IMG/VR virus record: IMGVR_UViG_3300013126_000037
Coordinates: 1 to 57,240 of that record
Strand: one strand, 5' to 3'
DNA from: a virus
DNA length: 57,240 nucleotides
Positions 13,901 to 44,671 of this stretch are shown here, piece after piece. The notes beneath the pieces were generated by a model. It made no database searches. It was not told the DNA's origin and worked only from the letters and a program-made list of their open reading frames with translations. Every line of letters begins with the position of its first letter. The first letter of the stretch is position 1. The position numbers were made by a program, and so were the translations under genes.

Positions 13901-16900
13901 ATTTGAGCAAAAGCAATCGGCGCTTGAAGATGCAAAGCCTGATGTCATTGAGTCACTAAAATCTCAATACGATGGCGTGCTTGATGAAGCACTAATCACC
14001 AAAATGGTTGATCAATCTATTGAGAGGTTGTTGGCAGCTCACATACCAACCGACGCCGAAGCTAATAGTGCACAAGAGTTACGGCAGTATGAAGAAGAAC
14101 AATTGAAATTGCAATTGGCTATTGATCGTGCTGATAACAGTGGCGAACAAGCAGATTTCTTTAAAAAACAATTGAATAGTGTACTAGAACAGTCAATGAG
14201 CAACAAAGCAAAAGCCGCTTCTGATGCGGGTTTGTGGAGGCGCGTAATTGCCAATAACATCTTTGGGGCTTACATAAACAACTGGGTAATGAAGGGCTTT
14301 AGGATGCGCGTACCTGAAGCCATGTATCTGCGTTACCCATTGGCAAAGAACACTCGAGTTCTTGATTACTTAGCTGGTAGTTTTGACGTCGGCAAAATCC
14401 GCAGTGGTCTTTCTATTGCCGACGCAAACCTTAATAAATGGGGAGACATGATATCCGGAATCCCATTTATTACTAATACTCAATATAGGCAAGTCGAAGT
14501 ATTGCGTACTCAGTGGCGGCAGATTATGCGCAATGTTTATAAAGCAGAATTTGCAAAAAAAGATTTGTCACCAGCTCGAGAAATTACTGAACTTAACAAA
14601 CTAATGGATGTCTTTCGTGATGAATACAAAATAGACGAAAGGTCTAACGTTAAATCTGGAGAGGTTATTGAAAAGAATAAAGATTTAATCCTACGGATTT
14701 TATCTAAAACAAATGACCCTGAATTAAAACAACGATTTCTCGATTGGGTTTATGAATACAATAAACTTGCAAGTAGCAGTACGTATTTTGACAATGTACT
14801 GCAAGACTTGGCTGAACCAAAAGAAAAACGTAAGGGTTATTCAACACTTAGAGTTGAATCGCAACAATATGACGACTTGCTAAATGGAAAAAAAGTCGTG
14901 TACTACGTATCCAACTGGGGAACTCTGCGTGAATCGTTAGCGCATGTCAAGGCACAACAAGCCACAATCGAGCGTACGCTTGATTCGTGGAATCCATTTG
15001 GTCCAAAATCGACTGAATTTAGATACGAGTTTGTACAAGTCGTTAATACTGAAGTACTGAAAGAAGTACGTAACTTCATCCTTAATACTCGTCAAGTTAC
15101 GGAGGGTGGCGTCAGGTATTACATCTATGATTCGTACAATGAGAAGCAAGGTTTAACGCCGTCGGATAAGTTGACGTTTGATGAATACACATCAGTAGTA
15201 ATGAAGTTAATGCGCAGTACAGCGCGTAACGCTGTTGGACAGTTTTTTGCGCAGATTGACCCAACAGCCACAATAGCTCCAGATATCACAGTCAAAATTA
15301 AACGTGCCGAAAACGACCTTGATAATGACATTGCGTGGAAAAACACGCAGCCAACGGCGTCACAGCATGCAGAGGAAGCATTGCGTCGACACACGATTTA
15401 CTCTATGGCTGCAGGTATAAAAAATCGTGGTGTGTATGCGGATCAATCTGCCCGAATGATTGAGTCAGCAATGCAAGCAAGTCGAGCAGTTGGTAATGAG
15501 CCAGGTAAACCATGGAACACTGTTGAGTTTAACGGTGTTAAATACAAAACTGAAGAGTCGTTCAATAACGCAATCAGTGCATACGATGCCACTGGGCATG
15601 CATATATTGATGTAGTCGACGCCGTTAATGACGCAATTCGTATTAAGAAGTCTGGTGCATTAGAGTCTGATGCATACGGATTTACAGATCTATCATTAGA
15701 GCAACTTGACGAATTGGCATCTATGGCTAAAGGTGCAGAGCGTGATCAACAAGGATTCGATGACTTTAGGGAGTACATCGAAAAAACTGCGTATACGCGT
15801 AATGTCCCAGGCTTACTATTCAGAGCGTCAATGCATGAGCGACAATCAGCCTATCAGCCATCTGTGTGGAGTGTTGGACCGGACAGCAAGCGTACCTTGC
15901 GGATGCTGGGCATTGATGTAAATGACGTTGAAGCACAAGTCAAAAGCAATCGTGCGTTACTTGAAAGAAAACGTCGTCAAAACAGTATTGCTCGCACGGT
16001 AAGCAATGAAATCAATAAAGATGATGAGTCATTCACTATTGAACAGGGATTTACATTTGACTATCTAGAATCCATGGATGCAGATAGAGCTGATCGAGTT
16101 GAATTCTTTAATCTGTTTAATACTATTAATGCATCTAATAGTGGCATTTTGACAAAAGAATTTTCTGAGTCATTCATTCGTGACCTATCAAACAGACCGT
16201 TTGTAATGAAGATTGGTGTTGAAAAGGCAACGTCAGCAGCTGATTACCTAACCTTTAATCAAACAATTGAAGCGATTAATCGGTTGAGTTCAGAAATTGG
16301 CGATTACAAACAAATGCTAAAAATCAACCCTGGTGACAAAGACATCACGGAACGAATGAACCAAGCAGTTCAGGACAGGGTCGAATTAAACAAAAGATAT
16401 AGAGAATCGTTTGACAAGTTTGAAAAACAAAATGACCCTATGTTCCGATTAATCGGCAAAAAAATTGACGCCCTGACATTATTGGCTGAAAATTTTGCAG
16501 ATGGTCTAGGTTTAAAAGGCAATGCTCGACTAGAAAAAATTGGTGAATTGACAGGCGTCCTGTATGACCTAGCCGTTGATTTGCAGGGTGCTAAACAGAA
16601 CGTCGATATGAAAGAAAGTGAAAGACGAAGATTCTTCATTGCTAACTTGTTGCGAAATTCGGGTGCTCGTAACGCTCGGACGTTATTCATGGCATCGACA
16701 TTTGCTGGCTACTCTGAATCGGTGATTGTTCGGGGTACGCTTGATAGATCGTTTCCGCCAGATACTACTTTGCGTGAAGCATTAAACGAGACGCTGAAAG
16801 ACAGTGGACTTACGCTTGATGAACTTGTCATTGGATTGGCGTTTACTTCAGAGAAAATAACATCCGAAGTTCAATCAATTATTAGTGAGCCAGGTGAGTA

Positions 16901-19900
16901 TGAAGCATTCATAAAACGAGTTGCTGCTAACCGTGATTTGTGGAATGGAACCAAAGAGAAAAAAGGATATCTTGATCAGCCTGTAAGTGATATTCAGGCA
17001 AACAAAGAATTACTTAAGGTAATGAACAATGAAATCAGAACTACAGAATTTCTGATTAATAAAATTGTTGAAAACTATCGTAAGCCAGCCAATGCAGCAA
17101 CCGATATGTCCATGCTGTATGAGCAGTTAGCAAAATCCGTAACTCCCCTTGAGGACATGGTTCTTGAGATGAAGCGTCAACATGTGCTCAAAAATGGCAT
17201 GACGGCACAAGAATCATTTTCCACAGCCGTAATGAACGCCACGCAACGTGGTACAGGGGAAGTGCAGTCAGCAATAAAATCTGCTCTTAAACGACAGTCC
17301 GACGTTGAAAATGCACAAATGCAAACACACATGGACGAAGCGCGCTTAAATCAAGATGGACACTACAACCTTGTAGCACGTGGCATGCAACGTGTTTTAA
17401 AAGACATTGAACGCATGGAAGATGCATTTAGCTTCTTGTCAAAAGACAAGAAGTCTATACCTGTAGACACATCTCAAGTCAACGCACAATTAAAACAACA
17501 TGGCGACTATGTATCGTTTATTGTCCTTGACGAGCACGTCAAAGGTGCAACGTCTCAATCATGGCTGTCGCTTCGAGGGCAACGCATCTTAGTGCCATCT
17601 AGTTTTTACAATGCCACCACAGGTCGTGTGACGTTTAAAAGTAATCATTCGTTCCTGCCAAATAACCTGACACCAATGGAAAAGCAAGCTTACATTCTCA
17701 CGTCATGGTTTGTAGAAAACAATGCTGTAGATGGACTACCTATCGGTAGAGCATTATCTGAAAACGTACGCAATTTGTTTAGCCGAGCAATTTCTGATTT
17801 TGATACATCAAAACAAGCAGAACGGCAGTTTAAGGCTACAGTGCTTCATTATACAAATGATGTTCTTAACTCACTTGTTATGCGATTCCCTCTGCGTAAT
17901 GAAAACCTCCGGTACACAAACACTGGAACAATAACAATAAAAGATCAAGTTCCATCAGACGTGCCGAAGAAAATACAATCATGGCTTGCAAACAATGATG
18001 TCAACTGGTTCCGATATTCAACAAAGGCTCGCAACTTTAACTTTGAGCAGCTATTGACTCGCCTAAGAGCCGATGGGATTGAGGTGTCATATCTGTCAAA
18101 CAAAGACTTGTGGGCACTAACTGAAAAACAAGGCGCTGCATCCAATCGTTATTCTGTATGGAAAGAACTTGTTGATGCACGTGACAAATACATTGTTGAC
18201 CCGTTGAAGTCCAGGTTGGAATCGTCAAGCAAATTGATGTCACAAATGTCGCTGCATGAACTCAACATGGAATTGCGTGACTCGGGTTGGACAAACACTG
18301 ATAGGGCGGCATTCTTTGCAGATTACTGGCACATTACGCAGACACGCCAAGGAAACATTCCACGCGACTACATGATTGCAACAGGTGAATTCCCAACACG
18401 TGAGGCAATTCGTCAATACGTAGACAAAACTATGCAAGGTAAATCCGAAGACGAACGCCTTCTTGCGTATACCGAGCAAGTTAAAAATCTTGATGCCCTT
18501 GAACAGATGATTGCTACTGCTGGCTATGAGGCAACTGTTAAAACATCGTCTATTACACAGGCTGAAGTTAGATACAACAATGACCCAAATTCAAGTTACG
18601 TCTTAACTGGCATCATGCGAGATGTACAGGCTGACGCTCTTGATGGCGAGCAACAACAAGTTCGAGAGACGTTGCTTAGTCAGACAGAGTTGTTGACTGG
18701 TAACGCAAAATCAGTCATGAGTGACTTGTTGACGCAAGTAGGGGAACTCAAAACAGAAGCAAAAAGTTTGATGACAGAGTTCTTAAACAATCCAGAAAAA
18801 CTCAACATCAAAAATATCACGGACATTCTAATTACAGGCTCGCAACCAGCTGGTGCTAGAAACATCAAGGTTCCATCCCTGAAAGGAAAGACAACTGAGC
18901 TTGAATCCGAGACTCGCCGTATGGCTGTCCATGTTGAAGTAAGTGCAACAAACAATCTAAAAACACTGCAAGAGAATCTGAAAGATGGCCCACTATCGTT
19001 GGAAATCAGTCGCAACTTGGCTGAGCTTGGAGTAAACGTTGGACGTGGTCGAGTAAAAATACAAGACCTAATAACCGGGCATTCGTCATTCGTGCCAACG
19101 CGTACAATGACTACAGCGCAGCAACAACAAGTGCAACTTATATCAAGTAAGGTCAAAGCATATGTTCAAGCACAAGCACGTGTACTTATTGGTGCTAGGC
19201 TAGAGTTATTACGTAGTATGAATGACTTCGCATATGTAGGATACGAGTATCGGCAAAATGGTCCAAGTGTAGATGTGTACGAACAAGGCGTAAAAAAGTA
19301 CACAATTGATTATAAGAATGGCAAAGTATCAACAATAAATCACGAGGAAATTTTGGCTATTGGGTCAAAAACATCACCGAGTGAATGGTCTTCTGTCTTA
19401 AATGGTTTAGATGAAGGTTTCCAGAACCAAGTAAAAACACTAGATATCGCACAACTCAAGCAATTAGATTTGATGATTACTATTGCTAAGCGTCCAGGTG
19501 AAGCATACATTGGTGGCTCAATAGAAACGCATGCCGATGCAGTTAAAACACTAATTGAAAGCATTCGCACTAATGCAAAGGCAGTACCTGCGGTGTATTG
19601 GCACGGTATTGCAAAAATGCAACGCCCTGAAGAGCCTGGAGCCGAGATGTACACACAGCCCGCAATGTCGCCAGCAAGAGTAGACATGGAATACGGCACT
19701 ATCGACCCTAGTACGAGGCGTACGTTTGTAAACCCAGTTATTGACAAATGGTTGCATTCGTCTACTGGGCAGCCACAACGTGTTGTTCTTAATCACAACA
19801 ATGAGGTTGGGCGTGATGAGTACGGCTACACTGTATACCGTGAAGACGGTAATCGTAGTCATATATATCGCAACCTAGTCGAGTCTGGGCTTAGCCGAAA

Positions 19901-33257: not shown

Positions 33258-33507
33258 AAATGTCACCTTTCGTAGAAACAATCCAAACAAGACAAACCCC
33301 AACAATACACACCAATACACATATCACTCACAACAGATACATCCGTGACAAACAAAGATGACCGCTAGGGCATTTTTCTTGACGAATCAAGGCTAAAACC
33401 CAAGATTTGGTACATCTATACGGGAACTCTTGTAGAGTCTGTGTATGGGCTTCCTACGTGCCTACGGAGGCATGCAGAAATCGACCCCCTCCGTGTCGCT
33501 AAGTCAC

Positions 33508-33560
33508 GGGGAGGGTGCAGAATCTGCACCGCAGGTATTGGGGAGGGTGCAGAATCTGCA
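33508..33560. repeat. Two noncoding iterons (oriR-like)
   Basis: An identical 21-bp sequence occurs at 33508-33528 and 33540-33560, 32 bp apart. It contains GGGGAGGGTGCAGAA, the core shared with the repeats inside the initiator gene, and GTGCAGA-A-TCTGCA(C), a small palindrome. By analogy with SPP1 this is a candidate second replication origin. Confidence 0.8.
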
Positions 33561-33561
33561 T

Positions 33562-33724
33562 CCCACAGTAAAAGTACAAGTCGTGGCACGCCACTAACTC
33601 AAACGGAACGGTACTTGCGGGGATGATATAGATTGTGCGGGCAATCAATTTTCAAATACTTGCGTGGTGTATGTGTGCTACCGCCAAGCCCTGGCAATCC
33701 AAACCAGAGCAGTACTAGCGGGTT
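33562..33724 (-). promoter_or_regulatory. Cassette promoter module 1 (degenerate, three palindromes)
   Basis: The TATA-type block at 33562 is decayed (TTTACT on the - strand). The proximal motif TACTTGCGGGGA starts at 33612, exactly 50 bp on. The next, TACTTGCGTGGT, starts at 33657 (45 bp), and a third, TACTAGCGGGTT, at 33713. A GTCTCGA/TCGAGAC hairpin follows at 33734-33749. The module points at the iterons. Confidence 0.6.
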
Positions 33725-33756
33725 GTGTGTGTGGTCTCGATTTCGAGACAAAAAAA

Positions 33757-33780
33757 GGGCGGGGAGCCGAAGCCCCCCCA
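33757..33780 (-). terminator. Terminator of cassette 1
   Basis: On the - strand GGGGGGC-TTCG-GCTCCCC forms a stem with one G-U pair, followed by CGCCC and a run of seven T residues. Confidence 0.8.
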
Positions 33781-33786
33781 CCCTGT

Positions 33787-34272
33787 TTAGTTGTCCGCCC
33801 AGTGAGCGATGAGAACATCAAGAGCGTTCTTGAGTTCTGCTCGAACAATGACCTTGATGTCATCGTTGGATGGGACGTTCTCCCTGACCGACTCGTCAAT
33901 GAGTTCGGCAAGTTGGGACTTGAACGCCCACGAATCGCAGTAGCGTTCTACAGCTGCGTCAACGTCAATGTCTGGCTCGTCCGTGTCCTCCAAATCGCTG
34001 ACACGGCTTTCGATGTCGTCAACCTTGCTGTCAAGGTCGGAGATGTCCGACTCAGCCTCGCCGATACGCTCAACGAGTTTGCACTCGTTGTTGTCGGTAG
34101 CGACAACGTGGTCTACGAACTCCCGGCGAATCTCTTCCTTGAAAGGGTCGATTGAAGCGTCGATGATTTGCTGGATGTCTTCGACTCGTGTGCCAGTTGG
34201 AGTCAGTTCGACTTTCATGGCTCCGATGAGTTCGATGACGAGGTCTGCGATGCGTTTGGACTGATTGTCCAT
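33787..34272 (-). CDS. Acidic coiled-coil protein (cassette 1)
   Basis: The protein has 161 residues with GGGAG eight bases before ATG. A heptad coiled coil runs through about residues 60-95 (IGEAESDISDLDSKVDDIES and on), followed by an acidic linker (DTDEPDIDVDAAVERYCDSW) and helical C-terminus. No family is recognised. Many phage early proteins that bind host factors are small and acidic like this, but nothing specific is visible. Confidence 0.55.
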   Translation of the reverse strand: MDNQSKRIADLVIELIGAMKVELTPTGTRVEDIQQIIDASIDPFKEEIRREFVDHVVATDNNECKLVERIGEAESDISDLDSKVDDIESRVSDLEDTDEPDIDVDAAVERYCDSWAFKSQLAELIDESVRENVPSNDDIKVIVRAELKNALDVLIAHWADN

Positions 34273-34325
34273 GGTGGTTCTCCCACACGTCCTAAGTGAT
34301 GCAGTCGATGTACGCTACACCCTTG

Positions 34326-34433
34326 AACACTATATAAGTACAGATGCAGTAGGATGCCTAACTGTAGCCAACCCATACCTGCGTGGTTTATGTAGATTGT
34401 GGCGGTTGCTTAATTTCCCAATACTAGCGTGGT
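34326..34433 (-). promoter_or_regulatory. Cassette promoter module 2
   Basis: TATATA box on the - strand at 34331-34336; proximal palindrome TACCTGCGTGGT at 34376 (50 bp from block start 34326); distal TACTAGCGTGGT at 34422 (46 bp further). It drives the gene ending at 33787. Confidence 0.75.
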
Positions 34434-34464
34434 GTGCTTGTGGTTTTTGCCAACGGCAAAAAAA

Positions 34465-34487
34465 GGGAGGGGGCTTTCGCCCCATCC
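34465..34487 (-). terminator. Terminator of cassette 2
   Basis: - strand GGGATGGGGC-GAAA-GCCCCCTCCC stem with GAAA loop and a run of seven T residues. Confidence 0.88.
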
Positions 34488-34489
34488 CA

Positions 34490-35296
34490 TCAACCCATCG
34501 GGAGAGTCACCCACTTTTCCGATGGACCGTGTGCCCGGATTGCAACGTTGCGGGTTCCGTCGCATTTCAGGCATCGTTCGCACGGTATCAGTTCCATGCG
34601 TCCCTTGAACTGCGGGTCGGACACACACGACGTGGTGCGCGTCAATGACCGAAACAGTTCTTTGTAGTTGTCATGCGGAAGCACAGTGAATGTGCCCCAC
34701 CCGGCATGCACAGCACGGTAATGGTCATCGGGTGAATCACACGAAGCCATCACGGTACCACGAAGCCATTCGCCATGCTTCGCATTCCACTGGTGAGTGT
34801 ACCCAGTACGCCCTTTCGCATACGGTAGTATGCATTCCCACACGTGCTGTGGGATAGCCGCTGGGTCACCATAGGCACCCATGCGTAATGGGCGACCCGT
34901 CGCCGCTATCGCACGTTGCACAGTGTGAACATCTGGCATGGGAACATTACCGCGTTCCCATGCACGCCAGATTGTCAAAGGACCCTGCCCGACATTTACG
35001 TAACAGGTCCTCATTACTTTGACTTTGCCCTTTGCATTGCGGCGTTCCTGCATCATGTGTGGGCATCGATTCTTTCCGATACCGCAGATGCTACCGTCCA
35101 ATCCAAGCTTTATCGCTTGAACTGGGTCAATATCCAAACGCATGATATACGTTTGAATCATTGCACCAGTCTTGCGATTACGGGAAAGATTGGACAATCC
35201 CGAAACAAACAATCCAATGGGGGCGCCATCGATTGCAGACGGTCCTGCCCACAGCAGGAACGTGTTATGACGTGAAATACCGTGTTTTGTAAACAT
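34490..35296 (-). CDS. Conserved cysteine-rich phage protein of unknown function (cassette 2)
   Basis: The protein has 268 residues from ATG 35296, six bases after GAAAGG; ATGs 21 bases upstream lack a site. It matches a family found in many tailed phages: GAMIQTYIMRLDIDPVQAIK, then ICGIGKNRCPH, RTCYVNVGQGPLTIWRA, LRMGAYGDPAAIP, GYTHQW, VMASCDS, a GWGTF strand and a closing CERCLKCDG. The paired cysteines suggest a bound metal or iron-sulfur centre. Biochemical function is unknown to me. Confidence 0.75.
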   Translation of the reverse strand: MFTKHGISRHNTFLLWAGPSAIDGAPIGLFVSGLSNLSRNRKTGAMIQTYIMRLDIDPVQAIKLGLDGSICGIGKNRCPHMMQERRNAKGKVKVMRTCYVNVGQGPLTIWRAWERGNVPMPDVHTVQRAIAATGRPLRMGAYGDPAAIPQHVWECILPYAKGRTGYTHQWNAKHGEWLRGTVMASCDSPDDHYRAVHAGWGTFTVLPHDNYKELFRSLTRTTSCVSDPQFKGRMELIPCERCLKCDGTRNVAIRAHGPSEKWVTLPMG

Positions 35297-35318
35297 GGCA
35301 TACCTTTCAAACATCACA

Positions 35319-35443
35319 GTGTAATCACTATTAATTACACTTTATAAGTACACATCGGACAATCTGCTATACCGTAGCCAACCCATACCTGCGAGGTTGA
35401 TGTAGTTTGTTTGCTTTGACTATGTTGGCAATACTAGCGTGGT
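35319..35443 (-). promoter_or_regulatory. Cassette promoter module 3
   Basis: TATAAA on the - strand at 35341-35346; proximal TACCTGCGAGGT at 35386 (50 bp from 35336); distal TACTAGCGTGGT at 35432 (46 bp). A 7-bp inverted repeat GTGTAAT/ATTACAC lies at 35319-35340 at the expected transcript start. Confidence 0.75.
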
Positions 35444-35476
35444 GTGTTTGTGGTTTGCCGCACAGGCAAAAAAAGT

Positions 35477-35494
35477 GGAGGGCCGAAGCCCTCC
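35477..35494 (-). terminator. Terminator of cassette 3
   Basis: - strand GGAGGGC-TTCG-GCCCTCC followed by ACTTTTTTTG. Confidence 0.93.
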
Positions 35495-35497
35495 TAA

Positions 35498-35818
35498 TTA
35501 CGCTACTACGTAGAACGATGTGTACGACGGTTCGCCGATGTCGTCTGCAAACCGTTGTACTAATGCCTCCCATGCCTTGGTTTGCTCAGGTTCCCACTTT
35601 CCGGGACCGGTGCGATACCCAAGCAGGACGCGAACATCAAGTAACTGAAAGTTACCTTCGTCACATTCTAAAGCGTCTTGAACCTCTGAAAGAATACGGG
35701 TTGCTTCCGAAGGCTTTAGAACCTTTTCTTTTACGAGAATATCTACCCAGTCAATAAATGATTCACCTGTAACTGATGCAAATGTGGTTTTTTGTAATCC
35801 ACGTGGTCTGATTTCCAT
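35498..35818 (-). CDS. Unknown protein (cassette 3, second gene)
   Basis: The protein has 106 residues; its ATG directly follows the stop of the first gene of the cassette, with GGAGG nine bases upstream. It is helical (FIDWVDILVKEKVL, SEATRILSEVQDALE) with a short C-terminal strand. No family is recognised. Confidence 0.55.
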   Translation of the reverse strand: MEIRPRGLQKTTFASVTGESFIDWVDILVKEKVLKPSEATRILSEVQDALECDEGNFQLLDVRVLLGYRTGPGKWEPEQTKAWEALVQRFADDIGEPSYTSFYVVA

Positions 35819-36049
35819 CTAATCCTCCAATACTGCGTTAACACGTTCCGCTATTTCATCCCATTGTGCGTGCCACAAAAGATGATTAAAGATACTGTGA
35901 AGGGCTGTGCCCTCAGTCATCTTGCCGTCAAAGTCTTCATACACGAATTCCCTGCACCATTCTGCGGTAACAGGTTCTTTCGTTTCTTCTACCTGTAGCA
36001 CCATGCTGTCGCCGTACCACAGCCACAGCTCCTGTGAAATCCATTCCAT
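35819..36049 (-). CDS. Unknown protein (cassette 3, first gene)
   Basis: The protein has 76 residues from ATG 36049 with GGAGGG nine bases upstream. The open frame continues upstream through the promoter module, which is not coding. It is acidic and tryptophan-rich (MEWISQELWLWYGDSM). No domain is recognised. Confidence 0.55.
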   Translation of the reverse strand: MEWISQELWLWYGDSMVLQVEETKEPVTAEWCREFVYEDFDGKMTEGTALHSIFNHLLWHAQWDEIAERVNAVLED

Positions 36050-36053
36050 GATA

Positions 36054-36177
36054 GTAACCCTCCATTGGTTACACTTTATTTGTACACTTCCACACGTACC
36101 GCTAACTGTAGCCAACCCATACTTGCGAGGTGTGTGTAGTTTGTCCTGGTTGACTATGTTTGCAGTACTAGCGTGGT
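36054..36177 (-). promoter_or_regulatory. Cassette promoter module 4
   Basis: AATAAA on the - strand at 36075-36080; proximal TACTTGCGAGGT at 36120 (50 bp from 36070); distal TACTAGCGTGGT at 36166 (46 bp). GTAACC/GGTTAC inverted repeat at 36054-36072 with the ribosome site in its loop. Confidence 0.75.
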
Positions 36178-36210
36178 GCTTGTGTGCTTCGAGGTCAATG
36201 CACAAAAAAA

Positions 36211-36228
36211 GAGGGGCTTTCGCCCCTC
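36211..36228 (-). terminator. Terminator of cassette 4
   Basis: - strand GAGGGGC-GAAA-GCCCCTC followed by seven T residues. Confidence 0.93.
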
Positions 36229-36232
36229 TGAT

Positions 36233-36670
36233 TCAAACGTACTTTGTGATTTTCACGCCGCCACGTTTACCAAAGTGTACTTTGAAATCAGGACAACCGT
36301 ATTCTAGATTGTCTGGGTTCATGTAGTACACTTCAAACGACGCACGGGTGTCCACGCAGGGATAACGGCGCTGATTATTTATGCGCTCTTGCAATTCCGC
36401 CTTGATTGCCTTGACGCTAGTAAATACCTCAAAGCCATCAAACGCATAATAATGTTCATTGACAAAGCGTGCGTAGAAATACGCAGGACGTCTTGTTGGC
36501 TTTATAACACGTTGCGTCAAGGTTTCGTAAATATACGCAGGATATGCCTTCATGCTGCGGCTCCTGTTAGCGTTGACGCCTAACGCGCAACGCATTGCGT
36601 TGCTAAACGATAGGAATTCCCCGTGAACGTACGTCTCACCTAAAGGTGAACGTTGTTTTACCTGATACAT
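36233..36670 (-). CDS. Unknown basic protein (cassette 4)
   Basis: The protein has 145 residues from ATG 36670 after TGGAGGG; the longer frame runs through promoter DNA. It is basic and aromatic (RRPAYFYARFVNEHYYAFDG). The middle (AIKAELQERINNQRRYPCVD) is helical and the end is beta (FKVHFGKRGGVKITKYV). No family is recognised. Confidence 0.55.
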   Translation of the reverse strand: MYQVKQRSPLGETYVHGEFLSFSNAMRCALGVNANRSRSMKAYPAYIYETLTQRVIKPTRRPAYFYARFVNEHYYAFDGFEVFTSVKAIKAELQERINNQRRYPCVDTRASFEVYYMNPDNLEYGCPDFKVHFGKRGGVKITKYV

Positions 36671-36674
36671 GATA

Positions 36675-36798
36675 ATAACCCTCCAATGGTTACACTTTAT
36701 ATGTACACTTGACGCAGTGTAGCCAACCAAAGCCAACCTGTACCTGCGTGAGTTATGTAGTTCGTTTGGTTTATCTAATATGCCAATACTAGCGTGGT
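36675..36798 (-). promoter_or_regulatory. Cassette promoter module 5
   Basis: TATAAA on the - strand at 36696-36701; proximal TACCTGCGTGAG at 36741 (50 bp from 36691); distal TACTAGCGTGGT at 36787 (46 bp). Leader inverted repeat ATAACC/GGTTAC at 36675-36693. Confidence 0.75.
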
Positions 36799-36830
36799 GC
36801 GTGTGTGGCCCGGATCCCGGGCATAAAAAA

Positions 36831-36850
36831 ACCCGAGGTTTCCCTCGGGT
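36831..36850 (-). terminator. Terminator of cassette 5
   Basis: - strand ACCCGAGG-GAAA-CCTCGGGT followed by a T run; a second GCCCGG/CCGGGC palindrome lies just beyond. Confidence 0.93.
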
Positions 36851-36905
36851 CTGCATACATCGGTAGCCGGGAGTATCACCAGTAGCAGCTACCTGATTAT
36901 GCATA

Positions 36906-37127
36906 TTAGAACAAACTCATAATGTCGTCGTCTACGCCGTCTTGCTCGGACATAGCGTGTTCAGCTGCGTCGCGCACGGCTTGCTTCCAGAACTCAGCGT
37001 CCTCGGGTTCAGGACTGTAATAATCCCAGAGGTCCACGTCAGCCAAGTCGTCGAGTCCAACGCCGATACGGCGTGCAATGTAGTTCGAGACCCGTGTCCA
37101 GAACTGGTCGAATGTCATGCTAATCAT
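36906..37127 (-). CDS. Small acidic protein (cassette 5)
   Basis: The protein has 73 residues with GGAGG 12 bases before ATG 37127 (a second ATG four codons in is possible). It is very acidic (DLADVDLWDYYSPEPEDAEF; EQDGVDDDIMSLF) and mainly helical, the profile of DNA-mimic or host-protein-binding phage peptides, though no family is recognised. A 55-bp gap to its terminator contains no gene. Confidence 0.55.
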   Translation of the reverse strand: MISMTFDQFWTRVSNYIARRIGVGLDDLADVDLWDYYSPEPEDAEFWKQAVRDAAEHAMSEQDGVDDDIMSLF

Positions 37128-37131
37128 GATA

Positions 37132-37255
37132 GTAAGCCTCCATCGCTTACACTATATAGGTACACTTCCACGTGTACCGCTAACTGTAGCCAACCCATAC
37201 CTGCGTGGTTTATGTAGTTTGTTTGGTTAAGGCTATTTTGCAGTACTAGCGTGGT
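37132..37255 (-). promoter_or_regulatory. Cassette promoter module 6
   Basis: TATATA on the - strand at 37153-37158; proximal TACCTGCGTGGT at 37198 (50 bp from 37148); distal TACTAGCGTGGT at 37244 (46 bp). Leader inverted repeat GTAAGC/GCTTAC at 37132-37150. Confidence 0.75.
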
Positions 37256-37287
37256 ATGTGTGTGGCCCGGATGCCGGGCATAAAAAA

Positions 37288-37305
37288 AGGAGGCCGAAGC
37301 CTCCT
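37288..37305 (-). terminator. Terminator of cassette 6
   Basis: - strand AGGAGGC-TTCG-GCCTCCT followed by T residues. Confidence 0.93.
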
Positions 37306-37309
37306 AAAA

Positions 37310-37426
37310 TTAGAACTCAAAGTCCACGAGGTAAACCCCGTTGGACACGCACCACATCCAACACAGTCCGATGGTTATAAAGATTGCCACCATTAGGGCA
37401 TCCCACAATCTAATCTTCGTCTTCAT
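37310..37426 (-). CDS. 38-residue membrane protein (cassette 6, second gene)
   Basis: ATG 37426 is preceded by GGAGGAGG; the gene overlaps the upstream one by 17 bp. A basic N-terminus (MKTKIRLW) is followed by a single transmembrane helix (DALMVAIFITIGLCWMWCVS). The function is unknown. Confidence 0.6.
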   Translation of the reverse strand: MKTKIRLWDALMVAIFITIGLCWMWCVSNGVYLVDFEF

Positions 37427-37655
37427 CGCTAAATACCTCCTCCTGACACACCGGGCAAAAACCCGACATGAAGAATTCTCGAGCAGTAATCTCGAGGTGC
37501 TGCGGAATACTGTTATTCCATCGCATTGCCACGTGGTCATCTTCGCTAACAACAACCTTCACCTTGTCGCCACACAGCACACACGGCGCACTGTATTCGA
37601 CATCTGTTGACATAATGGATGCATCGCGTACGGTGCATAACTCAAAGTAACGCAT
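37410..37655 (-). CDS. Small zinc-ribbon-like protein (cassette 6, first gene)
   Basis: The protein has 81 residues from ATG 37655 after GGAGG. Two pairs CVLC (about residue 24) and CPVC (about 68) indicate a zinc ribbon with a long insert. The C-terminus is acidic (EEVFSDEDED). No family is recognised. Confidence 0.6.
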   Translation of the reverse strand: MRYFELCTVRDASIMSTDVEYSAPCVLCGDKVKVVVSEDDHVAMRWNNSIPQHLEITAREFFMSGFCPVCQEEVFSDEDED

Positions 37656-37659
37656 GATA

Positions 37660-37782
37660 GTAAGCCTCCATCGCTTACACTCTATAAGTACACTTGACGC
37701 AGTAGCACCAACTATACCAAACCTATACGTGCGAGGACTATGTAGTTCGCCCTGGTTGGTCATATTGCAGTACTAGCGTGGT
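37660..37782 (-). promoter_or_regulatory. Cassette promoter module 7
   Basis: TATAGA on the - strand at 37681-37686; proximal TACGTGCGAGGA at 37726 (50 bp from 37676); distal TACTAGCGTGGT at 37771 (45 bp). Leader inverted repeat GTAAGC/GCTTAC at 37660-37678. Confidence 0.75.
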
Positions 37783-37816
37783 GTGTGTATGCTCCGCTTT
37801 TTTGGACAAAAAAAGT

Positions 37817-37834
37817 GGAGGGCCGAAGCCCTCC
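37817..37834 (-). terminator. Terminator of cassette 7
   Basis: - strand GGAGGGC-TTCG-GCCCTCC followed by ACTTTTTTTG. Confidence 0.93.
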
Positions 37835-37837
37835 GAG

Positions 37838-38020
37838 TCAATCCTTCTTTGTTAGGTGCTCGTGAATCTCGGGTATATACCCGATAGTCCACGCTACAAC
37901 AATGGACGCCAAAAACGAAGCGTACCAGAAGTACGACTTGAAGCCCCCGGCGAACATCAGCGATACGACGGCGTGAATAAACGCCACAGCGAATACACCC
38001 AGCAAAAGTCCTTTTTTCAA
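37838..38020 (-). CDS. Small two-helix membrane protein (cassette 7, second gene)
   Basis: The protein has 60 residues from a TTG at 38020, eight bases after CGGAGG; no in-frame ATG fits. Two hydrophobic segments (LLLGVFAVAFIHAVVSLMFA and SYFWYASFLASIVVAWTIGY) are linked by a short loop, and the tail is charged. This is holin-like topology, but such proteins are common in phage early regions too. Confidence 0.6.
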   Translation of the reverse strand: MKKGLLLGVFAVAFIHAVVSLMFAGGFKSYFWYASFLASIVVAWTIGYIPEIHEHLTKKD

Positions 38021-38032
38021 GGCAAAACCTCC

Positions 38033-38054
38033 GTTCCCCGGTTTCCCGGGGAAC
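38033..38054 (-). other. GAAA-capped hairpin upstream of a ribosome site
   Basis: - strand GTTCCCCGG-GAAA-CCGGGGAAC, a perfect 9-bp stem, lies between the two genes of cassette 7 directly before GGAGG. It has no T run, so it is probably an RNA stability or processing element, not a terminator. Confidence 0.6.
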
Positions 38055-38066
38055 TGTCACAAACCC

Positions 38067-38267
38067 CTACGATGCTTGACGAATGACAGCCCTGACAAAG
38101 TTTGTCAGGTGGTGAAGGGTACACATCTCGCTGTCAAACTCGAAGCACCCTACGCTGTCAATATCTACGGTTGTTATCCCGTTTTTATCGAGTTCGACTT
38201 CGCAGTCGTACCCTTCAAAACGAAACTCAATCCGTAAGAATCCGTTTTGACGATATGAATACGTCAT
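38067..38267 (-). CDS. Unknown small protein (cassette 7, first gene)
   Basis: The protein has 66 residues with GAAAGGAATCG before ATG. It has beta strands (FLRIEFRFEGYDCEVELDKN) and a helix (MCTLHHLTNFVRAVIRQA). No family is recognised. Confidence 0.55.
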   Translation of the reverse strand: MTYSYRQNGFLRIEFRFEGYDCEVELDKNGITTVDIDSVGCFEFDSEMCTLHHLTNFVRAVIRQAS

Positions 38268-38307
38268 ATTCGATTCCTTTCACAAAACAATGTAGGCAAT
38301 CCCGCCA

Positions 38308-38415
38308 TACACTTTATAAGTACACTTGACGCAGTGTAGCCAACCAGAGCCAACCTATACGTACGAGGTGTATGTAGTTTGTCCCTATTGACTAGATCCG
38401 CATTACTAGCGTGGT
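38308..38415 (-). promoter_or_regulatory. Cassette promoter module 8
   Basis: TATAAA on the - strand at 38313-38318; proximal TACGTACGAGGT at 38358 (50 bp from 38308); distal TACTAGCGTGGT at 38404 (46 bp). Confidence 0.75.
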
Positions 38416-38449
38416 TGTGAGATGCTCCACGCTTTTAGGCAAAAAAAGT

Positions 38450-38467
38450 GGAGGGCCGAAGCCCTCC
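38450..38467 (-). terminator. Terminator of cassette 8
   Basis: - strand GGAGGGC-TTCG-GCCCTCC followed by ACTTTTTTTGCC. A GAAA-capped 8-bp hairpin (38469-38488) that includes the stop codon of the gene lies immediately before it. Confidence 0.93.
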
Positions 38468-38481
38468 GCCTCTAGGTTTCC

Positions 38482-38577
38482 CTAGAGGTTAATGACGATG
38501 AAGGCGCCGATAAGCGCCGTTGCCACTGCAAGGGCAATTACCGTTGCAGTGGTGGTGCGAATAGTTATACTTTTCAT
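38482..38577 (-). CDS. 31-residue membrane peptide (cassette 8, second gene)
   Basis: ATG 38577 is preceded by AAAGGAG. The peptide has a basic N-terminus (MKSITIRTT) and one transmembrane helix (VIALAVATALIGAFIVINL). The long frame reading in from upstream is not coding. The function is unknown. Confidence 0.55.
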   Translation of the reverse strand: MKSITIRTTTATVIALAVATALIGAFIVINL

Positions 38578-38600
38578 ACCATTCTCCTTTCTAAAAGATT

Positions 38601-38618
38601 GGAGGGCCGAAGCCCTCC
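38601..38618 (-). terminator. UUCG hairpin between the genes of cassette 8
   Basis: - strand GGAGGGC-TTCG-GCCCTCC followed by AATCTTTTAG. The stem is identical to the other terminators but the T run is poor, so it may terminate only partly and tune the downstream peptide. Confidence 0.7.
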
Positions 38619-38620
38619 GT

Positions 38621-38890
38621 TCAGACAACGACACGACGGTACGATATGTACATCGTGTACCGCCCGTCGTAACTTTGGAGCCATGCCTTAGCATGACGCC
38701 AATTCCCGCCGTACTTGACGACGTGCCATTCCTCACGATTGAATCTCGGGAGGATGAGAAAAGCGGAGTCAATCGCTTCACCCATGTACACGTGCAACGA
38801 CTCAGTTTGCAGCGCCCATTCCTGACGCTTTGAAACAACGATGTCGCCAAACATATTGGCGACCTTGACTGTAATGACTTCATTCGTCAT
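38621..38890 (-). CDS. Unknown protein (cassette 8, first gene)
   Basis: The protein has 89 residues from ATG 38890 after AGGAGG; the upstream extension is promoter DNA. It has alternating strands (VITVKVANMFGDIVVSKR; YTMYISYRRVVV) and tryptophan-rich centre. No family is recognised. Confidence 0.55.
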   Translation of the reverse strand: MTNEVITVKVANMFGDIVVSKRQEWALQTESLHVYMGEAIDSAFLILPRFNREEWHVVKYGGNWRHAKAWLQSYDGRYTMYISYRRVVV

Positions 38891-38895
38891 GATTC

Positions 38896-39016
38896 GTAAC
38901 CTCCTAGTTACACCTATAACGTACAAATAACGCAGTATCGCCAACCGAAGACACACCCTACCTGCGAGGGGGAAGTAGTTTCACCTTCCCCTTTATATAC
39001 ACGCTACCTGCGTGGC
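38896..39016 (-). promoter_or_regulatory. Cassette promoter module 9 (outermost)
   Basis: TTATAG on the - strand near 38914-38919; proximal TACCTGCGAGGG at 38959 (50 bp from 38909); distal TACCTGCGTGGC at 39005 (46 bp). Leader inverted repeat GTAAC/GTTAC at 38896-38911. No terminator follows because transcription to the right is divergent. Confidence 0.7.
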
Positions 39017-39202
39017 AGTCAGACACTCCATGCATGCCCCCTGCCTCCTCCTACCCCCTCCCCCTCCCCCGTACACCAATACACCCCCTATATGGCAAGC
39101 CCCCTACCCCATGTAATCCATTAATCCTCCCCGCCCCCTACAGAACATATTTTCTCCAGCCCTCCTCTACCGACGTAGAATATACTATACCTGCCAAATG
39201 TT
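39017..39202. other. Divergent intergenic region with C-rich pyrimidine tract
   Basis: No gene is supported. Between about 39035 and 39170 the + strand is almost pure pyrimidine in blocks (for example CCCCCTCCCCCTCCCCC near 39054-39070). It lies between divergent transcription units. An open frame through it encodes only proline-rich low complexity and has no ribosome site. Confidence 0.75.
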
Positions 39203-39231
39203 TTGCACTTACACACAAAGAAATGTATAGT
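39203..39231 (+). promoter_or_regulatory. Sigma70-type promoter of the rightward early operon
   Basis: TTGCAC (39203-39208) and TATAGT (39226-39231) are spaced by 17 bp. The transcript would begin just before GGAGG of the first gene. A second TATACT box lies slightly upstream. Confidence 0.7.
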
Positions 39232-39248
39232 AGTAGTGGAGGTTTGTT

Positions 39249-40331: not shown

Positions 40332-40682
40332 GTGACAAAAGCAACGTTGTATCAGTACAAGTTGAAGAATATCTCCGTGGTAGATGGAGACACGTTGAAG
40401 GCTGACGTAGATCTTGGGTTTGGTGTTGTTTTGGCAAGCAAAAAAATACGTCTAGCGCACATCAATTGCCCAGAGAAAAACACCGATGAAGGTCAAGAGG
40501 CTCGGTGGCATACAGAATCTCTGGTGCTTGGCATGGAAGATGTCGTCGTGGTCGTCAAGAACCATCGTGAGGATAAGTATGGACGCATTCTTGGTGATGT
40601 ACTAGTTGCTGGACATGACCTGGCTACCATGATTAAAGAAGATGGCCATGGTGTTGACTACGAGGGTGGAAAGCGAGCGTGA
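40332..40682 (+). CDS. Staphylococcal-nuclease-like (thermonuclease) protein
   Basis: The protein has 116 residues from a GTG directly after the previous stop, with GGAGGAAG upstream. The SNase OB-fold pattern is clear: VVDGDTLKADVDLGFGV, KIRLAHINCPE (Arg and Glu of the active site), EAR helix, and DKYGRILGDVLV (second active-site Arg). The Asp of DGDT and the Glu after Pro are in place, so it is probably active in calcium-dependent cleavage of DNA or RNA. It is short for the family but complete. Early expression next to a methyltransferase suggests host DNA breakdown or entry defence. Confidence 0.85.
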   Translation: MTKATLYQYKLKNISVVDGDTLKADVDLGFGVVLASKKIRLAHINCPEKNTDEGQEARWHTESLVLGMEDVVVVVKNHREDKYGRILGDVLVAGHDLATMIKEDGHGVDYEGGKRA

Positions 40683-40688
40683 TAGCAA

Positions 40689-42239
40689 GTGAGGTATTTG
40701 AGTGTTTGTTCAGGAGTTGAAGCTGCTAGTTTGGGGTGGCATGATTTAGGTTGGACACCTGTAGGGTTTGCGGAAATTGAGCCGTATCCATCAAGGGTAC
40801 TTGCGGATAGATTCCCTCATGTAAAGAACTATGGGGACATGACCCGTTATAAGGAATGGGATATTGACAGAACATCAATTGACATTATTGTCGGAGGAAC
40901 CCCCTGCCAAGCCTTCAGCGTTGCGGGAATGCGAAAAGGAATGGAAGACCCTAGGGGAAATCTCGCCTTGGTCTTTATTGGTATGGTTGATTTCTTTAGA
41001 CCCGAATGGGTTGTCTGGGAAAACGTACCCGGTTGCCTTAGTGTCAACGGAGGAAGGGACTTTGGCTCCATCCTCGGGGCGTTTTCAGAGCTCGGGTATG
41101 GGTGGTCCTATCGGATCTTGGACGCTCAGTACTTCGGCGTGCCCCAAAGACGCCAAAGAGTCTTTCTTGTCGGACATTCTTCAGGAGATCCACGACGTTC
41201 CGGAAAAGTACTATTTGAGTCCGACTGCGTGCGAAGGCATTCTCAGGAGAGCCGAAAAACGAGGAAAGTCACTCCCACCGCTACTACGACAGGCACTGTT
41301 AGCAGTAAGTGGGCGAAAGGAGCAGGAGGACCAGCAGGAGACGAAGCCTACAACTTAGTCACGGTAATGTATGAAAACCATCCTAATGACAGCCGGGTCA
41401 CTGGACCTGTTGATGAATCACCTACAGTCGCAGCTCGGTGGGGTACAGGTGGAGGTAATACTCCACTTGTACAGCATGCATATCGCAAGTCGAGGCGCGC
41501 TCAGAGCACTGAAGACCATGAGACGTGGGTCGAAGACGAGGTCGCAAACACGTTAAACACGTTTGACGTTGGCGATATTCGCAGTACTAACTTGGCTGTG
41601 CAACCTATTGCTCTTGCTGAAAACACAATAGGTCGACAGCCAACTAACGGAGGTAATGGAAACGGGTTTACGGTTGGTGGACCAATGTATACACTCAATG
41701 CAACAGGCGTGCATGGTGTAGCCCAAGCGTTCACGGCCGCCCAGGTACGTCGAAGCGGTACGGTGCAACTGAGCGACATATCGCCAACGCTAACATCGCA
41801 AAACAAGCAAGGTGACACAGCACCATTGGTATTCGCATTTGAGCCAGGATCGATAGCTCGCAACGCTGGTCCAACGGGCATGGATACTGTATGCTCTACT
41901 CTTCGAGCAGACATGGGTGACAATCAACCCGCAGTACTTTCGGTTGAGCCAAGCACATTCAAAGTGCGTGGTGGATGCGACGGTGGAGGTAAAGGTTATC
42001 TTGGACAAACGGAAAAGGCATTTACTGTGTCAACTACACAGGATCAATATCTGTCACTGAACATGGTAGTGCGTAGGCTCACACCGACCGAATGCGAACG
42101 CTTGCAAGGTATGCCTGACGAGTGGGCTAAGGCTTCAGGTAAAGAGTCAGATTCGGCTCGTTACAAGGCAATAGGTAACAGCATGGCAGTGCCTGTTATG
42201 AAGTGGATTGGTGAAAGGATACAAAAGGAAAGTTTATGA
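40689..42239 (+). CDS. DNA (cytosine-5-)-methyltransferase
   Basis: This 516-residue C5 methyltransferase is read from a GTG with a near GTGAGG context. Motifs: I LSVCSGVEAASLGW (4-17, AdoMet site), IV GGTPCQAFSVAG (catalytic Cys 73), VI ENV (111-113), VIII QRRQRVF (153-159), IX RRLTPTECERLQG and X YKAIGNSMAVPV at the end. Between VIII and IX lies about 300 residues of repeated SPT-type segments (ESPTVAARWGTGGGNTPLVQ; ISPTLTSQNKQGDTAPLVF), the target-recognition region, longer than usual. It would methylate phage DNA against host restriction. A second gene lies inside it in the +1 frame. Confidence 0.95.
   Translation: MRYLSVCSGVEAASLGWHDLGWTPVGFAEIEPYPSRVLADRFPHVKNYGDMTRYKEWDIDRTSIDIIVGGTPCQAFSVAGMRKGMEDPRGNLALVFIGMVDFFRPEWVVWENVPGCLSVNGGRDFGSILGAFSELGYGWSYRILDAQYFGVPQRRQRVFLVGHSSGDPRRSGKVLFESDCVRRHSQESRKTRKVTPTATTTGTVSSKWAKGAGGPAGDEAYNLVTVMYENHPNDSRVTGPVDESPTVAARWGTGGGNTPLVQHAYRKSRRAQSTEDHETWVEDEVANTLNTFDVGDIRSTNLAVQPIALAENTIGRQPTNGGNGNGFTVGGPMYTLNATGVHGVAQAFTAAQVRRSGTVQLSDISPTLTSQNKQGDTAPLVFAFEPGSIARNAGPTGMDTVCSTLRADMGDNQPAVLSVEPSTFKVRGGCDGGGKGYLGQTEKAFTVSTTQDQYLSLNMVVRRLTPTECERLQGMPDEWAKASGKESDSARYKAIGNSMAVPVMKWIGERIQKESL
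40864..41358 (+). CDS. Gene nested out of frame inside the methyltransferase
   Basis: This 164-residue frame lies wholly inside the methyltransferase gene, +1 to it, starting at a TTG with AAGGAATGG upstream. The sequence is not random: SFLSDILQ, KYYLSPTACEGILRRAEKRG and LPPLLRQALLAV match a phage protein family I recognise (typically '..SLSDILE....yyLSprAcaGILRRAekRGk.LP..L..AL'). In other phages these proteins also accompany cytosine methyltransferases. SGMGGPIGSWTLSTSACP precedes it as in that family. Function is unknown. Alternative: a conserved shadow forced by the methyltransferase codons. Confidence 0.6.
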   Translation: MTEHQLTLLSEEPPAKPSALRECEKEWKTLGEISPWSLLVWLISLDPNGLSGKTYPVALVSTEEGTLAPSSGRFQSSGMGGPIGSWTLSTSACPKDAKESFLSDILQEIHDVPEKYYLSPTACEGILRRAEKRGKSLPPLLRQALLAVSGRKEQEDQQETKPTT

Positions 42240-42694
42240 AGTTGATTTACGAAGTTATGGAGCATGGCGTAGAACCCTTCGCCGTGCCTCTACCTGAGTA
42301 TAAAGGTAACGCCGCATGCTTCGATATCGCAGCTGCTGTGAAGAAACCAGTGTCTATACACCCAGGTAAATACGCAGTTATCCCTACAGCACTTAAATTC
42401 AAGATACCTGCGGGTTACGAGTTGCAAGTTAGGTCACGCAGTGGCTTGGCGGCATCGTATGGATTGTTTGTGCTAAACGCACCAGGCACAATTGATGAAG
42501 ACTTTCAAGGTGAACTAAAAGTTATCTTGATGAATCTAGGGGAAAACGTAGAACATATTTGCAGGGGGTCACGAATTGCTCAGGTATCACTCAGCCCGGT
42601 CACAAAGGCAGAACTCATTGAACTCAACACGGGAGACTTATTTGAACAACAAACTGAAAGAGGGAGTAACGGGTTTGGATCAACAGGTAGATAA
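42236..42694 (+). CDS. dut: Deoxyuridine 5'-triphosphate nucleotidohydrolase (dUTPase)
   Basis: The protein has 152 residues, starting in an ATGA overlap with the methyltransferase stop. All five trimeric dUTPase motifs are present: ACFDIAAA, RSRSGLA, LNAPGTIDEDFQGELKV, RIAQVSLSP and RGSNGFGSTGR. It hydrolyses dUTP to dUMP and pyrophosphate, keeping uracil out of phage DNA and supplying dTMP precursor. Confidence 0.95.
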   Translation: MKLIYEVMEHGVEPFAVPLPEYKGNAACFDIAAAVKKPVSIHPGKYAVIPTALKFKIPAGYELQVRSRSGLAASYGLFVLNAPGTIDEDFQGELKVILMNLGENVEHICRGSRIAQVSLSPVTKAELIELNTGDLFEQQTERGSNGFGSTGR

Positions 42695-43599: not shown

Positions 43600-43902
43600 A
43601 TGGCAAGACCACATGTGAAGCGGACAAAGCTGCATCATCTGTGTGACCGGGCCGGCTTGACGCAACGTATGTTCGCCGAGCAGGTAGGTGCAGATGAATC
43701 AACAACATCTCTATGGCTCAGCGGAAAAAGAATGCCTAGTGCAAATGTAGTACCAAAGATTGCAGAAGTACTTGGGATGGAAGCCAACTACTTACTTGGA
43801 CTGTTTGTGGCTATGGAGCTTCGACGGAATTACGGCGACACGGTATGTAGATTCGTCTACACACATCTGAATCAACTATCGGCGGAAGAAGACTATTCAT
43901 AA
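43600..43902 (+). CDS. Cro/C1-type (XRE) helix-turn-helix regulator
   Basis: The protein has 100 residues with GAAAGGA before ATG. Residues 8-65 are a standard XRE domain: LHHLCDRAGLTQRMFAEQVG, STTSLWLSGKRMPSANVVPK and IAEVLGMEANYLLGL. No C-terminal cleavage domain is present, so it is a small Cro-like protein. A strong inverted repeat lies just upstream and suggests autoregulation. Confidence 0.88.
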   Translation: MARPHVKRTKLHHLCDRAGLTQRMFAEQVGADESTTSLWLSGKRMPSANVVPKIAEVLGMEANYLLGLFVAMELRRNYGDTVCRFVYTHLNQLSAEEDYS

Positions 43903-44294: not shown

Positions 44295-44317
44295 CTGGGC
44301 TATTTTATATAGCCCAG
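44295..44317. terminator. Terminator after ssb, shared with the convergent regulator gene
   Basis: CTGGGCTA and TAGCCCAG (44295-44302, 44310-44317) form an 8-bp stem followed by TTTTCT on the + strand. The left arm includes the stop codon of the convergent regulator; on the - strand ATCTTTT follows. Confidence 0.85.
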
Positions 44318-44605
44318 TTTTCTACCCTTGTTGCATGCTTGCGTACGTGCATCACGTCCACTGCAACCAAGTTTCCAATACATTGAATCCATATGAAACT
44401 GCACTGTCCTGTGGCTGATACCTAAACTTGCAGCCATCTGTTTTGCGGTCAACTTACTTGGCATCATTCCAAGGATTTGACGCTCTCGATCTGATAGTTC
44501 GTATATTACGTCTGTACGAGATTCTTTTTCTGCTGGCGCTTCATCATGTGAACGCCAAGTAAAACCATCAAAATACATACCCTCACGGGAATCTTCCATA
44601 AACAT
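44300..44605 (-). CDS. Orphan LuxR/GerE-type DNA-binding protein
   Basis: The protein has 101 residues with GAAAGG before ATG (a second ATG two codons in). Residues 36-100 form a GerE domain: LSDRERQILGMMPSKLTAKQ, MAASLGISHRTVQFHMDSMY and KLGCSGRDARTQA. There is no receiver or autoinducer domain. It is the only - strand gene among rightward genes and is convergent with ssb. LuxR-type proteins often bind ACCT...AGGT palindromes, which resemble the cassette promoter sites, so it is a candidate activator of those promoters (inference). Confidence 0.85.
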   Translation of the reverse strand: MFMEDSREGMYFDGFTWRSHDEAPAEKESRTDVIYELSDRERQILGMMPSKLTAKQMAASLGISHRTVQFHMDSMYWKLGCSGRDARTQACNKGRKLGYIK

Positions 44606-44671
44606 TACCTTTCATGTACAATCCAATTGTGTTTTATCTGCGATTGTAGCATACCTGCTAGCGAGGTTATC
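44606..44671. promoter_or_regulatory. Divergent promoter region with ACCTGCTAGCGAGGT motif
   Basis: The 66-bp gap between the divergent regulator and the next gene contains TACCTGCTAGCGAGGT (44652-44667), combining both halves of the cassette-promoter palindromes. Its GAGG also serves as ribosome site for the rightward gene. Confidence 0.5.

Follow-up and report, generated by a model that had tools for sequence, protein, structure and literature searches.

A repeated promoter-like module with paired upstream sites and a candidate GerE-type regulator in uncultured phages

Promoter-associated repeats have been described in several phages. The extended start-associated sequences (ESAS) of cluster K mycobacteriophages span 46-47 bp and contain SigA-like -35/-10 hexamers 17-18 bp apart together with an imperfect inverted repeat of 15-17 bp; seven copies occur in Adephagia, and their regulator is unidentified (PMC3203893, PMC11373665). 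Cluster O mycobacteriophages carry 17-bp palindromes that lie mostly away from predicted promoters and in some cases within genes (PMC4351075). In phi29, the phage proteins p4 and p6 activate one promoter while repressing early promoters (PMC3100819). Among regulators with a GerE-type DNA-binding domain, the NarL-type DevR/DosR of Mycobacterium has a receiver domain and closely packed boxes, the proximal of which overlaps the -35 (PMC3029386). Here we analyze a stretch of virus DNA of 57,240 bases (IMGVR_UViG_3300013126_000037; 45.5% G+C), referred to as the window, in which a -10-like block preceded by a proximal site (P) and a distal site (D) recurs ahead of small-gene cassettes on the minus strand. 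This array is present in nine virus records from five lineages, in some of them with both sites altered in sequence. We judge it somewhat better than an even chance that the array consists of promoter cassettes that are terminator-insulated, depend on an activator and are run by a phage GerE-type protein.

Module architecture and spacing

The module repeat in the window is real. Every one of the nine block, P and D coordinates listed in an initial annotation of this DNA was found in the sequence as given (Table 1), with the block 50 bp from P in 9/9 modules and D 46 bp from P in 7/9 and 45 bp in 2/9 (those with blocks at 37676 and 33562). The exact distal 12-mer TACTAGCGTGGT has seven occurrences in the record, all within the array and all on one strand. 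Where the annotation had counted nine copies, eight modules (34329-39016) carry the described order and spacing and the ninth, at 33562, is atypical. Terminator T-runs end 24-26 bp ahead of D in modules 2-8, and terminator-like sites number 22 versus 5.5 expected; in module 1, D has diverged and no terminator stands ahead of it. Predicted start codons, preceded by a ribosome site, are mostly found 70-115 nt away from where P starts.

We compared nine virus records, grouped by site sequence, without a tree, into lineages A (the window and G002), B (G013, G009 and G011), C (L079), D (L085) and E (L086 and L089); the sample is limited to these five related lineages, and several records are fragments. 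A search with the D+P site pattern returned one colinear relative, G002 (62,008 bases), whose nine orthologous modules all have a D-P distance of 46 bp, whereas pattern matches in L008 and L014-L020 contained no D-P module and were taken as chance matches. Clade B was reached through terminase relatives and has ten modules per record, with sites that differ from those of the window (P CACGTAAGTA, D CCCCGYNAGTA). L079 (53% G+C), a third lineage, was reached with the GerE-type protein as query and also has the array, with five modules; an array-adjacent protein used as query led to L085, L086 and L089, with 7, 8 and 8 modules, respectively; L087, which duplicates four L086 modules, was left out of the counts.

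The core common to all lineages is CNCGYNRGTA, and the spacing, whose loss in related phages was specifically looked for, survives in distant relatives with different site sequences. Across the nine records, 69 same-strand pairs of perfect CNCGYNRGTA matches lie 20-120 bp apart, and 63 of these fall at 44-48 bp (one at 44, eight at 45, 35 at 46, 18 at 47 and one at 48), with six pairs at all remaining distances pooled. No pairs were found on the opposite strand in the same records, and 20 shuffled versions of the motif gave no pairs. The fixed length originally attributed to the module applies strictly to P to -10 only, to about 1 bp per genome; D-P spans 44-48 bp in relatives. The TG after the -10 starts at 58 in lineage A, 59 in B (one at 58), 58 in C, 56 in D and 57 or 58 in E.

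When the nine window modules are aligned without gaps to the nine of G002, the nearest relative, conservation extends beyond the three named elements. In these 18 modules, a strongly conserved ACNAACTACATA stands before the P core CCTCGCAGGTA, GGNTTGG and GTTRG come after the core, and 3' of GTTRG stand TGTAC and then the -10, TAnnnT, in which the T is invariant and a G comes next. P is itself two-part, with a second conserved element (GAWYTACA), as ACTACA/GATCTACA, a few bp upstream of the core. With the -10 set at -12 to -7, P centers at about -58 and D at about -104, the positions originally assigned. The palindromic character first ascribed to the sites did not carry over to relatives: the dyad ACCT-CGC-AGGT is a feature of clade A only, arm complementarity is 69% of positions for P and D alike in clade A but drops in clade B to 18% (P) and 44% (D), and across the whole module the best dyad centers are weak. 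A palindromic operator as a general feature was dropped because clade B lacks the dyad, and from their sequence the sites are more aptly called directional direct repeats. As the annotation had stated, no TTGACA-like hexamer lies 16-18 bp before the -10, but the absence of any conserved -35 was overstated, since all five groups retain a short, weak -35-like TNGG at about -39 to -36. A sigma-70 scan detected 0/9 window modules. The TAnnnT with its following G, and the start codons behind a ribosome site, fit a promoter role.

Two further features of the modules were noted. At position 5 of the -10, G is found in 9/9 window modules versus A or T in 8/9 G002 modules (p = 0.0004, the lowest among 106 columns and uncorrected, so a lead only); the change spans the whole array and might be linked to the polymerase of the host. 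In several window modules, for example at 36800-36830, the terminator T-run is followed by another short hairpin whose stem differs (GCCCGGGATCCGGGC in one case). Lying between terminator and D and not evident by eye in clade B, it was not counted among the module elements.

Besides the sites at 33612 and 33657, the copy at 33562-33668 carries another at 33713, which is 56 bp away from the one at 33657; it stands ahead of the next operon, with about 300 nt of leader, instead of a mini-cassette. In lineages D and E, too, the two cores of the module past the last cassette are separated by 54-56 bp, and the last module of clade B has a D-P distance of 48 bp and lacks TG at the expected -10 place in 2/3 records. 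Because the ninth copy differs from the standard module, the array proper of the window comprises eight modules. The leader of the post-array operon (33420-33565, minus strand) contains two copies of TGCAGATTCTGCACCCTCCCC and a possible CCCTCCCCGTG/CACGGAGGGGG hairpin, and L085, L086 and L089 have repeated GCAGAATCTGC-type elements after the last cassette, at the place equivalent to the window leader; these elements may represent an attenuator or an RNA-binding site.

Candidate regulators and competing readings

A single phage regulator of the array is plausible, and of the two candidates named at the outset, a GerE-type protein and an XRE-type protein, the GerE-type protein is the better one. 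It is found in every array-bearing record, and five records each contain one above-cut-off match to its family, PF00196 (49.5 bits in the window versus a cut-off of 23.5). In sequence it is similar to the DNA-binding domains of ChrA, GerE, DevR and NarL; the domain match is limited to residues 37-84 of the frame, and a receiver domain was not found. Clades A, B and D and one lineage E record share an identical recognition helix, SHRTVQFHMD; lineage C and the remaining E record carry V to I or M to Q substitutions. This near-invariance matches the stability of the site core CNCGYNRGTA.

In all lineages, the GerE promoter also has the core, or a close variant of it, overlapping or next to its -10. 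Upstream of the GerE gene, G002 has a perfect core, CTCGTAAGTA, between TTGACC and TATAAT, for which the window equivalent is CCTCGCTAGCAGGTATG; clades B, D and E have GTTATACTTACTTGCTAG or a close variant, with a reversed core-like sequence overlapping the -10-like TATACT, and lineage C has GTTATACTTACCAACGG. At the divergent rightward promoter, TATACTTACGAGC or TACCTACGTGC lies over the end of the -10 in clades B to E, and a reversed core with one mismatch overlaps TATAGT in G002.

From these features we infer a scheme in which host RNA polymerase would recognize the TAnnnT -10 aided by just the weak -35-like element, while the GerE-type protein, most likely, would bind the two-part P and the D of each module and from there recruit polymerase, so that all cassettes would be turned on together. 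One phage protein probably controls all cassettes. At two further promoters, its own and the divergent rightward early one, the same protein would bind the single, mostly reversed cores that lie over the -10 and so dampen both. Activation rather than repression at the array is suggested by site position, as a lone site over a -10 fits repression and paired sites at -58 and -104 fit activation; early timing is suggested because the array adjoins the divergent promoter. Phage sigma-70 region 2 was not found, and the PF00940 profile (phage RNA polymerase) gave no match, its control being equally silent. A broader proposal, to which we assign a little less than an even chance, is that a stand-alone GerE-type protein acts as a dual switch in one family of uncultured phages, turning the array on through paired direct repeats about 46 bp apart and turning its own and the divergent early promoter off, with the array serving as a plug-in platform whose module is retained as genes are swapped.

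Several points weigh against a GerE-type activator. Many GerE-type proteins act as dimers on inverted repeats, whereas the site here is directional; XRE orthologs co-occur with the array as much as the GerE-type protein does; in the window, the site at the rightward promoter is degenerate (two mismatches); upstream sites could in principle repress instead, for example by looping; and the five lineages are related phages, hence not fully independent tests. A first alternative, the same promoter array with the XRE-type protein acting from P and D and repressing its own rightward operon, we consider unlikely. Its orthologs form a conserved helix-turn-helix protein in all array-bearing records (35-44% identity outside the clade of the window), encoded rightward of the divergent promoter that bears the reversed core in relatives. 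Yet the XRE recognition region differs by lineage (ESTTS, APTVS, RPNVS, APSVS) though the site core is constant, and the core at the GerE promoter is not explained by XRE alone. We find similarly improbable a reading in which ordinary host sigma-A promoters fire unaided and D and P are operators for a phage repressor that silences all cassettes, as suggested for cluster K promoters. A good -10 with a weak -35-like element would suit such promoters, and the placement of the core across two other promoters is that expected of a repressor site, but D and P lie outside the core promoter and the modules lack a standard -35. Lysogeny repressor operator arrays, such as the cluster A stoperators, belong to temperate phages with integration functions; a search for tyrosine integrases (PF00589) in five records, some of them fragments, found none and so gave no sign of lysogeny.

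Host factors commonly drive early phage genes, and a host transcription factor rather than a phage protein could bind D and P. The core is also present at the phage GerE promoter, however, and site change lineage by lineage over whole arrays is easier to reconcile with a co-evolving phage protein, which makes a host factor very improbable. A role outside transcription, in replication, packaging or recombination between cassettes, may be considered because the 100-bp repeats lie between exchanged genes and could be recombination sites, and because gene content turns over behind a constant module. Such a role is less probable still, given the fixed distance to the -10, the placement between terminator and start codon, the shared orientation with the genes and the core copies at two other promoters.

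Cassette genes and neighboring features

The cassettes were first described as monocistronic, and instead carry one or two genes each (Table 1). Window cassette proteins share 44-91% amino-acid identity with those of colinear G002 genes (43% for 35498), and in clade B only 34490-35293 and 36233-36670 have relatives (35-38% identity). A simple gene caller predicted 108 genes behind the modules, which form 51 similarity clusters, some of whose single-member short open reading frames are probably not genes. Only one cluster, that of window gene 34490-35293, is present in 8/8 arrays that reach that position. Gene content thus varies behind conserved modules, which points to a module that is kept while genes are exchanged. 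The 34490-35293 protein matches phrog_2554, a PHROG of unknown function, and this is the sole strong match among cassette proteins; its predicted fold (mean pLDDT 57.5) was set aside. Pfam gave no informative match for any window cassette protein. The label of takeover genes is still a guess, given the lack of informative family matches and a sole strong match whose PHROG has no assigned function.

Table 1. Positions of modules, cassette genes, candidate regulators and related sites in the window
Feature	Position	Strand	Details
Module 1	38912..39016	-	-10 region 38912-38917, P 38959-38970, D 39005-39016
Module 2	38311..38415	-	-10 TAAAGT 38311-38316, P 38358-38369, D 38404-38415; upstream terminator stem 38450-38467
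Module 3	37679..37782	-	-10 TAGAGT 37679-37684, P 37726-37737, D 37771-37782 (D-P 45); terminator stem 37817-37834
Module 4	37151..37255	-	-10 TATAGT 37151-37156, P 37198-37209, D 37244-37255; terminator stem 37288-37305
Module 5	36694..36798	-	-10 TAAAGT 36694-36699, P 36741-36752, D 36787-36798; terminator stem 36829-36852
Module 6	36073..36177	-	-10 TAAAGT 36073-36078, P 36120-36131, D 36166-36177; terminator stem 36210-36229
Module 7	35339..35443	-	-10 TAAAGT 35339-35344, P 35386-35397, D 35432-35443; terminator stem 35477-35494
Module 8	34329..34433	-	-10 TATAGT 34329-34334, P 34376-34387, D 34422-34433; terminator stem 34470-34483
Module 9 (atypical, post-array)	33565..33724	-	sites 33612, 33657, 33713-33724; -10-like TACTGT 33565-33570
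Cassette genes, module 1	38621-38890, plus 31-amino-acid frame at 38482	-	
Cassette genes, module 2	38067-38267 and 37838-38020	-	
Cassette genes, module 3	37410-37655 and 38-amino-acid gene at 37310-37426	-	
Cassette gene, module 4	36906-37127	-	
Cassette gene, module 5	36233-36670	-	
Cassette genes, module 6	35819-36049 and 35498-35818	-	
Cassette gene, module 7	34490-35293	-	
Cassette gene, module 8	33787-34272	-	
Candidate regulator, 99-amino-acid stand-alone GerE/LuxR-type helix-turn-helix protein	44300..44599	-	Pfam PF00196
Alternative regulator, XRE-type helix-turn-helix protein	43600..43902	+	Pfam HTH_31/HTH_3
Core-like site ACCTCGCTAGCAGGTATG	44650..44668	.	GerE gene upstream region, directly before -10-like TACAAT; counterparts in relatives
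Divergent rightward early promoter region	39180..39240	+	reversed core over -10 clear in relatives

Elsewhere in the window, 40689-42239 (plus strand) resembles a DNA cytosine methyltransferase by sequence and 42236-42694 (plus strand) a dUTPase, and a nuclease-like gene (Pfam SNase) at 40332-40682 adjoins them; this group may bear on base modification or defense evasion. The unusually long open frame of 4,841 codons at 7989-22514 (plus strand) perhaps encodes a tape-measure or tail protein, judged by its size and place. G002 has about 5 kb (11.6-16.7 kb) between the parts that match the two ends of the window, so the window record is probably incomplete, and the ends of G002 overlap in their match to the window, as for a circular or terminally redundant genome. 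The array showed no DNA similarity to named phages, distant searches with the terminase and the GerE-type protein gave just weak matches in unannotated records, and cellular genomes scanned with the same two proteins gave no match. No Rfam family reached the gathering threshold.

Relation to known systems

For most small unknown phage genes, nothing hints at the timing or purpose of their action. The promoter module marks such genes in at least five lineages as one probably co-regulated, freely exchanged class, which makes them good candidates for host-takeover or counter-defense genes, and it provides a sequence handle for finding more of them. The paired-site geometry, kept despite sequence change, also offers a clean test case for cooperation of widely spaced sites without a standard -35. 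A search of open-licence papers found nothing relevant on phage arrays of this kind or on phage GerE-type regulators, which is weak evidence of novelty.

Like the cluster K ESAS, the module is a promoter-bearing motif with binding-like repeats placed before several small genes of one phage. Unlike the ESAS, it exceeds 100 bp, has two directional sites far upstream and has a terminator ahead; in place of SigA-like hexamers 17-18 bp apart it has only the TNGG at about -39, and no imperfect inverted repeat of 15-17 bp is general to it, the core dyad being missing in clade B. Cluster O palindromes are likewise binding-like sequences present many times per phage genome, often between genes, but the paired sites described here are not conserved palindromes and are tied to a -10 at a fixed distance. 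With DevR/DosR the candidate regulator shares a GerE-type DNA-binding domain and two or more sites per promoter; it differs as a phage protein without a receiver domain, whose putative sites lie 46 bp apart with the nearer centered at about -58, where the P core does not overlap the -35. The phi29 switch is the counterpart in regulatory logic, since the site positions would fit activation from upstream together with repression of early promoters. The activated phi29 promoter A3 has a poor -35, and p4 binds far upstream of it. Where phi29 has one such region, however, the phages analyzed here have up to ten copies of a putatively activated promoter, and their candidate regulator carries a GerE domain.

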